64,000 nucleotides of DNA from Cetobacterium somerae (GTDB lineage Bacteria > Fusobacteriota > Fusobacteriia > Fusobacteriales > Fusobacteriaceae): positions 1,118,454 through 1,182,453 of the forward strand of contig NZ_CP092519.1 in NCBI RefSeq assembly GCF_022430525.1, in the 5' to 3' direction. How positions within the stretch are numbered: the stretch's first letter is position 1; each line of letters starts with the position of its first letter. Under the pieces are notes generated by a model, which had not been told where the DNA came from, did no database searches, and was given only the letters and a program-made list of their open reading frames with translations. Below are positions 7,452-42,593 of the stretch, in pieces. Position numbers and translations under genes: made by a program.

Positions 7452-8156
7452 TTAGCATAAACTCTTTTTAGAATCCATCTTAGTCGCCAAGTATAAAAAT
7501 GGTGTATCCATAGCTGCAACTATCCATTTTAATATATATGTACTTAAAAATATCTCAAACATAACTTCAAAAGAGAAAATCCCTGTGAAGGCTAAAGTTG
7601 TAAATAAAATATTATCCACTAACTGACTTACCATAGTACTTCCATTATTTCTAATCCATAGATGCTTTGGAAACTTCTCTTTTAAAATCTTATACAGATA
7701 TATATCTACATGCTGAGATATTGCATACGAAACTAATCCAACTATCATAAATCTTGGGAATAATCCAAAAATCGATTTTAGATTACTATGCATCTCTAGT
7801 CCGTCTGCTTCTGGAGTAAACATCAGTGCAAAGTTTATCATAAATGCTATAACTATATTAGTAAAAAATCCTATCCAAATAGCTTTCTTAGCCTCTTTTT
7901 CTCCATACTTTTCAGAAAGTATATCTGTAACTAAAAATGCACTAGCATAAGGTATATTTCCTAGTGATGCATGCAAACCAAAAAGTTTAACTAAAACCAT
8001 TACCTCAACACTTGCTATAAACATAGATATTGGAATCCAAATAAAAAGTCCTGTTTTTCCAAAACATTTATAAGCACCTAAAACAATAATAAAACTTAAA
8101 AACAGTTTTATTATCCATAACATCTCATTTTGTAATAACATTCCATTCATCATCAT
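7452..8156 (-). CDS. yhhQ: Queuosine-precursor transporter, YhhQ/VUT family
   Basis: An integral membrane protein of 234 residues with about six membrane segments. Family hallmarks are NIPYASAFLVTDILSEKYG (around residue 67) and the later NNGSTMVSQLVDNILFTTL motif (about residue 170). YhhQ proteins import queuosine precursors (preQ0, preQ1 or queuine, depending on the member). It starts at the end of the nucleoside hydrolase gene, whose last codons contain its AAAGGGG RBS, so the two are co-translated. The shared leader carries a preQ1-I-like aptamer. Import for queuosine salvage is therefore the likely role; the exact substrate is not determined. Confidence 0.9.
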   Translation of the reverse strand: MMMNGMLLQNEMLWIIKLFLSFIIVLGAYKCFGKTGLFIWIPISMFIASVEVMVLVKLFGLHASLGNIPYASAFLVTDILSEKYGEKEAKKAIWIGFFTNIVIAFMINFALMFTPEADGLEMHSNLKSIFGLFPRFMIVGLVSYAISQHVDIYLYKILKEKFPKHLWIRNNGSTMVSQLVDNILFTTLAFTGIFSFEVMFEIFLSTYILKWIVAAMDTPFLYLATKMDSKKSLC

Positions 8157-8157
8157 A

Positions 8158-9123
8158 TTAATACCCCTTTAACACTATTTCGTTATCTTTTTTATTTTCA
8201 GGAAAAATTCTATGAAAGAAAAACTCAAAGAATCTTTTCTCATCCACCTCTGTATTTATAAATACATTTGGTGTTTTTCTATAAAAATCTCCAATATCTA
8301 TTAACGTCTGTCCAATGGCTCTTCCATTTTCAACACATTCTAAGTGAGTTAAAACTCCACTACATAGACTTGGCTCTATAAAATAAGCTACTGCTAAAGG
8401 ATCGTTTATTACACAACCTAAAGTTCTTTCTTGCATCCAATGAAAATCAACATAAAATCCTGTTATATTATAAATAAAATCAGCTATTTCATTTTTCATC
8501 TGCTTTAAATACTCTCTATAGTTTAGTGTTAAAACTATTTTTCTAGTTACATCTAGTGGAATAAGCTCTATTGGCTTATCTACATTTTCAAAAACAATAT
8601 TTACTGATTCTGGATCTACCCAGTAGTTAAATTCAGCTACTTGAGAACAATTCCCGTTGGTTCTAAAAGCACCTCCCATAGAAACAATTCTTTCAGCTCT
8701 TTTTAAAATCTCTTTTTCCCTCTCCACAGCCTTTGCTAAATTTGTCATTGGACCTAATGCTATGATAGATATATCATCATTCTCTTTTAAAGTTTTAATA
8801 AGATAATCCACAGCTCCTAATTTAATAGCATCTTTTGGAATGACAACTTCTGGTAAAACATCTCCAACTCCGTCGTCTCCATGGGTATCTTGAGCTGTTA
8901 CTAAATCTCTTTTAATCGGATTATTATCTCCTAAGAAAATAGGAATATCCTCTCTTTTTAGTAACTTTAAAACTCGATAAGCATTAACTCCTCCAATCTC
9001 CACTGGAACATTTCCAGCACAAATAGTAATTCCAATAACATCTAGCTCTGGTGATTTCAGTGCTAAAATCAGCGCCAGTGAATCATCAATTCCTGGATCA
9101 CAATCAATAATTATTCTTTTCAT
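8158..9123 (-). CDS. Nucleoside hydrolase (IunH family), probable queuosine hydrolase
   Basis: This 321-residue enzyme has the calcium-binding N terminus of nucleoside hydrolases (IIIDCDPGIDDSLAL) plus the FNYWVDPES and NDPLA segments, and would split a ribonucleoside into base and ribose. I place the start at ATG 9121-9123 (MKRIIID), preceded by GGGAGAGG. The longer in-frame ATG at 9214-9216 falls inside the leader aptamer and is unlikely. QueK, the queuosine hydrolase described in Clostridioides difficile, belongs to this family and neighbours YhhQ; the same pairing and the preQ1-like leader here make that function a good inference. A general inosine/uridine hydrolase remains possible. Confidence 0.9.
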   Translation of the reverse strand: MKRIIIDCDPGIDDSLALILALKSPELDVIGITICAGNVPVEIGGVNAYRVLKLLKREDIPIFLGDNNPIKRDLVTAQDTHGDDGVGDVLPEVVIPKDAIKLGAVDYLIKTLKENDDISIIALGPMTNLAKAVEREKEILKRAERIVSMGGAFRTNGNCSQVAEFNYWVDPESVNIVFENVDKPIELIPLDVTRKIVLTLNYREYLKQMKNEIADFIYNITGFYVDFHWMQERTLGCVINDPLAVAYFIEPSLCSGVLTHLECVENGRAIGQTLIDIGDFYRKTPNVFINTEVDEKRFFEFFFHRIFPENKKDNEIVLKGY

Positions 9124-9153
9124 AACCTCTCCCTTTCTGGGATCCACACAAAC

Positions 9154-9182
9154 AAAAAAGGCTAGAATAAACCTAGCCCCTT
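9154..9182 (-). terminator. Terminator hairpin in the leader of the queuosine-salvage operon
   Basis: Minus strand GGGGCTAG / CTAGCC stem followed by six T residues, placed between the aptamer and the coding region. It begins two bases after the aptamer's 3' pseudoknot strand, the usual geometry for a transcription-terminating riboswitch. Confidence 0.75.
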
Positions 9183-9184
9183 GC

Positions 9185-9218
9185 TGGTTTTTTTTACAGA
9201 TGGATCTCCCAAACATCT
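9185..9218 (-). promoter_or_regulatory. Probable preQ1-I riboswitch aptamer
   Basis: Minus strand 5' to 3': AGATG (P1, 9214-9218), UU, UGG (9209-9211), a loop ending in C, CATCT (P1', 9198-9202), GU, eight A residues, then CCA (9185-9187) that can pair with UGG to form the P2 pseudoknot. The size (34 nt), five-bp P1, two U residues after P1, a C just before P1' (where the ligand-pairing C sits) and the A-rich tail ending in the P2 strand all match the class I preQ1 fold. It precedes a nucleoside hydrolase and a queuosine-precursor transporter, and a terminator follows at once. Loop bases differ from the commonest consensus, so ligand identity is inferred. Confidence 0.72.
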
Positions 9219-9235
9219 TTTTTTATAAATTTAAT

Positions 9236-9272
9236 TCTAAAAGAGTATATCATCTCTTTTAGATTTTTTCAA
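9236..9272 (-). promoter_or_regulatory. Promoter with overlapping palindrome upstream of the riboswitch
   Basis: Minus strand TTGAAA (9267-9272), 17-base spacer, TATACT (9244-9249). A perfect 10-bp inverted repeat, TCTAAAAGAG / CTCTTTTAGA (9236-9245 and 9254-9263), straddles the -10 box. It may be an operator, or it may be the terminator of the preceding 9283-9594 gene, although its T-run is on the wrong side for that gene. Confidence 0.6.
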
Positions 9273-42251: not shown

Positions 42252-42593
42252 ATTGATAGGCATTAAATAAGCCGGGTTTTGTATTTGTCAATCATTTATC
42301 TAGAGCTATAATTGCTTATAGCTTCAAGCAACTTACCCTGAGAGAGGACGAGCAGCCCCTATTCTCTCCTATTTAGTCTTGCTCCAAAGGGGGTTTACCT
42401 AGCTTCTTTAGTCTCCTAAAGAACTGGTGGTCTCTTACACCGCCTTTTCACCCTTACTACAATATTGTAGCGGTCTATTTTCTGTGGCACTTTCCTTAAA
42501 GTTTCCTTTAGTAGCCGTTAGCTACCCTTTTCGCTCTGTGGAGCCCGGACTTTCCTCTTGCCAAAGCAAGCGATTAACTCTAATACCTATCAC
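42252..42593 (-). ncRNA. rnpB: RNase P RNA
   Basis: About 340 nt catalytic RNA that removes 5' leaders from tRNA precursors. The 5' half shows the universal core GAGGAAAGTCCGGGCTCC (minus strand, near 42546-42563), then GCGAAAAGGGTAGC and CTAACGGCTA. The 3' end has ACAAAACCCGGCTTAT. Outer helix P1 forms between GATAGGTATTA (42581-42591) and TAATGCCTATC (42255-42265). The 5' strand of P1 overlaps the last codons and stop of the 42580-43143 gene. Confidence 0.95.

Follow-up and report, generated by a model that had tools for sequence, protein, structure and literature searches.

PreQ1-I riboswitches, represented in Rfam by RF00522, have been described as three types. In type I the base before the specificity cytosine is always U and a CUA tail is preferred, type II prefers A at that position, and type III, almost exclusively found in Pseudomonadota, displays a pyrimidine-rich loop and an AAGG tail. 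The roles of the bases that form the alpha site (G5-C18, U6, C17 and A30) are established in preQ1-I structures (PMC11625349). The closest described systems are the type II element of Bacillus subtilis queCDEF, the type I element of Carnobacterium antarcticum, which stacks two preQ1, and the preQ1-I-controlled operon of Clostridioides difficile, in which queK sits with qrtT and queL (PMC11477304), and not near yhhQ as a first-pass annotation of our sequence had assumed.

The stretch of Cetobacterium somerae DNA that we analyzed (the window, 64 kb of a 2.97-Mb genome) harbors a 33-base RNA switch that heads a queK-yhhQ gene pair, with the aptamer at window 9218-9185 on the minus strand. We propose, with a probability of about 0.82, that this leader is a preQ1-sensing, terminator-coupled OFF switch with preQ1-I architecture, which belongs to a compact group lying beyond RF00522 and the subtype descriptions at hand. 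The features of the locus are as follows.

9244..9272, minus strand: promoter (-35 TTGAAA 9272-9267, 17-nt spacer, -10 TATACT 9249-9244)
9214..9218, minus strand: P1 5' strand AGATG; the outer pair covaries, the other four are invariant
9207..9213, minus strand: L1 and 5' side of P2, TTTGGGA; identical in every member, whether from Fusobacteriota or Streptococcus
9204..9206, minus strand: L2, GAT here and four bases elsewhere; variable
9203, minus strand: specificity cytosine (C17 equivalent), just 5' of P1'; invariant
9198..9202, minus strand: P1 3' strand CATCT, pairing with AGATG
9188..9195, minus strand: A-rich L3, A8; invariant, its last A the A30 equivalent
9185..9187, minus strand: P2 3' strand CC(A), complementary to UGG of L1; every member has the CC
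9169..9173, minus strand: GGTTT, predicted antiterminator partner of the tail AAACC; invariant in 8 genomes
9156..9182, minus strand: intrinsic terminator AAGGGGCTAGG-TTTAT-TCTAGCCTTTT, then T-rich; 11 pairs, two bases past the aptamer
9136..9147, minus strand: GTGGATCCCAGA, predicted to pair with 12 aptamer bases (TTTGGGA..TCCAT), enclosing the terminator; putative regulatory element
9126..9133, minus strand: Shine-Dalgarno GGGAGAGG, read from the sequence
8158..9123, minus strand: queK-type nucleoside hydrolase, 321 aa, start ATG 9123
7452..8156, minus strand: yhhQ/QPTR queuosine-precursor transporter, 234 aa (TIGR00697)

Read 5' to 3', the leader consists of AGATG-UUU-GGG-A-GAU-C-CAUCU-GU-A8-CCA (9218-9185), two further bases and the terminator, which is the 34-nt fold that the first-pass annotation had described. 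P1 is made of five Watson-Crick pairs between AGATG (9218-9214) and CATCT (9202-9198), and L1 is composed of TTT (9213-9211), GGG (9210-9208) and A 9207. By analogy with the known structures, G9214, the last base of the P1 5' strand, would be the G5 equivalent that forms the floor of the pocket, 9213 and 9212 would correspond to U6 and U7, and C9203 is expected to pair with the ligand, a role that is taken from preQ1-I structures (PMC11625349). A GG/CC P2 would be possible in the same register as in the B. subtilis element.

Compared with the B. subtilis type II element, the two aptamers share a 5-bp P1 with a G-C top pair, U6, a specificity C before P1', an A-rich L3, a short P2 between L1 and the tail, an association with queuosine genes and, in the proposed mechanism, coupling to a terminator in an OFF switch. 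In contrast to type II, the variant has an L1 fixed as UUUGGGA, a CC tail and any base before the specificity C (G in 11, U in 10, A in 3 and C in 1 of 25 unique aptamers), and it is invisible to RF00522. With A at that position in just 3/25, the group does not belong with type II. The type I element of C. antarcticum is similar in its UU after P1 and the C right after the A-run, and in the window alone also in the U before the specificity C. However, this U is lost in relatives, the CUA tail is absent and C8 is replaced by U, which makes a second (beta) ligand site doubtful; a base before C that may be G, U, A or C, together with the CC tail, excludes the group from type I. Type III is likewise excluded, by the purine-rich UUUGGGA loop, the CC tail and the hosts, Fusobacteriota and Streptococcus. 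PreQ1-II and preQ1-III also control the uptake of queuosine precursors, but their folds are larger and unrelated, and neither Rfam model has a match in the leader. The element is therefore not a new class but a preQ1-I sequence subgroup that current Rfam misses, and, being set apart from types I-III by their descriptions, it possibly represents an unrecognized fourth subtype.

The Infernal search with RF00522 that the first-pass annotation had proposed as a check came out negative, without a match in the 64-kb window either at the gathering threshold or at E 10, and the same was true of the relatives' leaders (E 10) and of the Streptococcus loci (E 5). The element thus falls short of the RF00522 gathering cut-off of 39 bits. 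The sole Rfam match in the window at gathering threshold is a class A RNase P RNA (42252-42590, 300.6 bits). A model built only from RF00522-type matches out of Fusobacteriota and Lactobacillales (R3) nevertheless has its best match of the whole window at the aptamer site (17.6 bits, E 0.017), and places the variant site on top in 21/21 variant loci tested. As a reverse test, a variant-only model (R2) was run on canonical loci and ranked the canonical aptamer first in 10/14 of them, at 13-23.5 bits. Since R3 recovers the variant sites while R2 scores separate group members (50-57 bits) from canonical aptamers (≤23.5 bits), the two forms are related but distinct.

These searches bear on whether the element is simply a divergent type I or type II member, hidden by Rfam's model alone and already included in the 2014 subtype alignments (McCown et al.). 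The shared pseudoknot plan, the A-rich tail, the alpha-site bases and the recovery of variant sites by R3 would all fit such a placement, which we regard as possible though doubtful because the free base before the specificity C and the CC tail disagree with the type I and II descriptions and because the R2 split is sharp (50-57 versus ≤23.5 bits). Were it correct, the mechanism would be unchanged and only the claim of novelty would fall. Streptococcus agalactiae has been reported with an Rfam PreQ1 match (PMC6064168). In the papers searched, no preQ1-I element on streptococcal queC is described; prior inclusion of the group in the 2014 subtype alignments is possible.

An orthologous hydrolase gene with the same leader is present in eight genomes of the genus. 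In 8 Cetobacterium-group genomes, 33/33 aptamer columns are invariant, whereas of the leader columns on either side only 46% are (p of about 1e-11 under the assumption of independent columns). The promoter keeps TTG and TATA(A/C)T across the genus alignment, and in the terminator stem pairing mostly survives base changes among the genus genomes. Terminator-like sites number 4 in the region versus 0.3 in shuffles. By folding energy, the 34-nt piece is indistinguishable from shuffled sequences (MFE z 0.12, no excess stability), as expected for an aptamer with a 5-bp stem and a pseudoknot, for which MFE is not informative. Covariation of P1 and P2 in relatives, on which the first-pass annotation had staked its reading, is seen for the outer P1 pair, which occurs as AU, CG, GC, UA and UG; 11/23 unique aptamers show two-sided changes relative to the commonest pair, and the covariation score was reached by 0/500 shuffles. 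No member departs from UUUGGGA in L1, from CC in the tail or from the common sequence of the A-run, the specificity C and the four inner pairs of P1, so that these inner pairs and P2 (GG/CC) offer no changes in which covariation could be seen. GG/CC complementarity is present, unvaried, in every member, and we infer P2 and inner P1 pairing from complementarity and analogy. Across two phyla, 27/34 columns are invariant. This near-frozen core includes the alpha-site bases, all of which are present (the G5-C18 floor, U6, C17 and A30), with the G5-C18 equivalent found in 23/23 aptamers, in agreement with the 5-6 bp P1 closed by a G-C pair beneath the ligand that characterizes preQ1-I.

Very strong conservation with little covariation can also mark a protein-binding site, and the leader could in principle be a constitutive attenuator, or be bound by a protein, and have no small-molecule ligand. 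We consider this highly unlikely for an element that shares its architecture with validated preQ1-I riboswitches, is conserved across two phyla and is associated almost exclusively with queuosine genes. Because its core is nearly frozen, the group lends itself to a direct test of whether it forms a fourth preQ1-I subtype, one with a new pocket ceiling.

The distribution of the element was determined by model and pattern searches. Within the phylum, a covariance model made from the genus leaders recovered it in one further relative of Cetobacterium (L035), and beyond that in a single additional family, with 21 genomes, which named records suggest to be Leptotrichiaceae/Sebaldella. When about 85,000 species genomes were scanned for the exact pattern, about 70 Streptococcus genomes, including pneumococcus, were added. 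While that scan required parts of the core, the model searches did not, yet they gave the same core and a wide score gap. The group consensus is nGAUGUUUGGGA-N3/4-C-CAUCn-nUAAAAAAAACC, and an improved covariance model with this consensus is the practical gain. The next weaker matches of the phylum search (≤26 bits) that were read were attributed to chance, as were the weak variant-model matches below 29 bits that were read individually, which lack the full motif and are mostly unrelated coding sequence, and the scattered exact-pattern matches (Roseivirga, Planctomycetota, Methanoregula and others), in which P1 cannot form. A scan of IMG/VR yielded no motif, and phage records gave one irrelevant 25-base match alone. 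For Lactobacillales and Bacillota, evenly drawn samples were searched with Infernal filters set more strictly, and weak members may have escaped detection there.

A queuosine gene lies downstream of 90/92 distinct sites: queC at 60, yhhQ at 21 and queK at 9. The automatic motif test gave queC 59, yhhQ 20 and queK 9, and two loci, L044 (yhhQ) and L094 (queC, at a record end), were assigned by eye. At the remaining 2/92 sites (L160 and L163) the leader is long and no gene lies within reach; these loci and L093 illustrate that in some Streptococcus several hundred extra bases lie between the aptamer and queC, with no close terminator. In Streptococcus, the operon under the variant aptamer is queC-queD-queE-queF, as curated models (TIGR) confirm for one locus. 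In Leptotrichiaceae it is yhhQ-queL, the radical-SAM gene of which matches the structure of queuine lyase QueL (PDB 6p78, E 9e-65). The group provides candidate regulators, missed by Rfam-based annotation, for the queCDEF operon in streptococci of the pneumococcus group and for the queuosine-salvage genes of Leptotrichiaceae and Cetobacterium. In family f1 (genus g14), six loci (L066-L067 and L072-L075) carry on yhhQ-queL aptamers that are intermediate between the canonical and variant forms, with an UUCGAAAAAUC loop and an ACCAA tail; the variant model gives 23.5 bits for L066.

Canonical and variant aptamers coexist and exchange gene sets freely. The C. somerae genome encodes, at G000:C1:1579903-1579947 (L001/L225), a near-canonical, type-I-like preQ1-I riboswitch (36.6 bits) that controls queL and a second yhhQ, whose product is 54% identical to the YhhQ of the window; here, then, the canonical form heads queL-yhhQ, whereas queK-yhhQ has the variant. 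Streptococcus equinus also carries both forms: its canonical aptamer (42.4 bits) precedes queK plus an ECF S-component gene, and its variant precedes queC. A genome with both forms makes it possible to compare their affinities and roles in one cell.

The first-pass annotation had also suggested that the element could be a variant with a changed ligand. The variant part stands, since RF00522 misses it, and the changed ligand finds little favor in the operons that it controls. PreQ1 alone is shared as a metabolite by all of the genes under control: it is the product of QueCDEF and of QueL, the end of the QueK-QueL route and a predicted substrate of YhhQ. Because canonical and variant forms swap partners and preQ1 is common to all of them, it is by far the simplest ligand, and a changed one is unlikely. 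That the variant would sense queuine or preQ0 is quite improbable in our estimation, even though its L1 and tail bases differ from those of RF00522 members, a canonical riboswitch coexists in the same genome, and the direct product of QueK is queuine. The same motif controls queCDEF, the product of which is preQ1, in Streptococcus. Queuine would be a substrate of the yhhQ-queL operon of Leptotrichiaceae, and since it is the substrate and not the product of QueL there, an OFF switch responding to it makes little sense; the QueL route does not pass through preQ0, and every preQ1 alpha-site base is kept. Altered recognition in the wider sense (queuine, preQ0 or a different stoichiometry) is improbable as well. 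If it were true, a cell would possess a pair of related switches, each responding to a different metabolite of a single salvage pathway.

As for the two proteins of the operon, the predictions of the first-pass annotation are supported. The hydrolase, a member of the IunH family, matches PF01156 (E 2e-85) and has the DxDxxxDD motif in the sequence IIIDCDPGIDD, and the transporter scores 185.2 bits with TIGR00697, whose curated cut-off is 50.95. The hydrolase is 50% identical to an S. equinus protein and 49.5% identical to a protein from an E. faecalis plasmid, versus 35% for the generic paralogue in its own genome, and its two plasmid relatives are both directly behind RF00522 matches (47.1 and 45.5 bits) and ahead of ECF S-component genes. 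In a tree of 16 sequences, made by a quick method and with long branches, it groups with RF00522-controlled proteins of S. equinus, E. faecalis and L. paracasei (SH-aLRT 100). We therefore classify it, from its sequence, as a putative QueK-type enzyme. The best curated profile for this protein is RihA, and one could suppose that it is a general pyrimidine/purine ribohydrolase and the operon one of nucleoside, not queuosine, salvage. This is very unlikely, because the 208 bits obtained are far under the cut-off of 433, the protein groups with hydrolases encoded under RF00522 and beside an ECF S-component gene, a separate generic paralogue exists in the same genome, and yhhQ directly follows the hydrolase gene in at least six genomes.

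The pathway inventory, which relies on family searches, shows QueC in 0/12 genomes of the genus, QueA in 10/12 and Tgt in 9/12, while the window's own genome has Tgt and QueA, lacks QueC, and encodes QueL elsewhere, under the ordinary preQ1-I riboswitch. With QueC absent and QueA and Tgt present, the genus would have to salvage, and the predicted route is from Q to queuine to preQ1, via QueK and then QueL. As in the C. difficile operon, a salvage hydrolase and a transporter are under preQ1-type control in a genome that encodes QueL. In contrast to C. difficile, queK is here paired with yhhQ, queL is in a second operon, and queK is under a variant riboswitch.

In the mechanism that we propose, the ligand-free tail AAACC would pair with GGUUU atop the terminator hairpin, RNA polymerase would read through, and QueK and YhhQ would be made. 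When preQ1 is plentiful, it would lodge between P1 and the GG/CC P2, where C9203 would pair with it and U9213 and A9188 would recognize it; the bound aptamer would then hold the tail, and the terminator would form and turn queK-yhhQ off. QueK would free queuine from queuosine, YhhQ would import a precursor, and QueL, produced from the second preQ1-controlled operon, would convert queuine to preQ1 for Tgt and QueA. GGTTT (9169-9173) overlaps the 5' arm and loop of the terminator, and its duplex with AAACC has a predicted energy of -8.9 kcal/mol (shuffle p 0.04). Pairing between tail and terminator has a shuffle p ≤0.07 in 15/17 Fusobacteriota leaders, with AAACC/GGUUU as partners in the Cetobacterium group and CCUUUUG/CAAAAGG in most Leptotrichiaceae. 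Most Streptococcus leaders, too, contain terminators within about 20 bases. A general antiterminator was sought in these leaders and not found, being unclear in most, in contrast to Fusobacteriota.

The Cetobacterium queK leader has additional elements. The predicted helix of GUGGAUCCCAGA, located just 5' of the Shine-Dalgarno, with 12 aptamer bases is paired in 96.9% of cells, compared with at most 55% in slid controls. The segment 9126-9147, just 5' of queK, reads TGGnnCCC...GGGAG, is conserved in nine genomes, and has two possible pairing partners, the aptamer and the Shine-Dalgarno. Since the CCC of 9136-9147 could alternatively pair with the GGG of the Shine-Dalgarno, one may speculate that a second, translational layer of control exists on top of termination. 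Upstream, the queK promoter has its -10 box inside a 10-bp palindrome (9236-9263, TCTAAAAGAG-ATGATATA-CTCTTTTAGA). The palindrome is partly kept in relatives, among which one stem pair is altered on both sides, and could be an operator or the terminator of a convergent transcript. Finally, while the true start of queK is ATG 9123, its frame is open back to an ATG at 9216, inside the aptamer, which means that automatic gene calling may produce a spurious 352-aa protein and mask the riboswitch.
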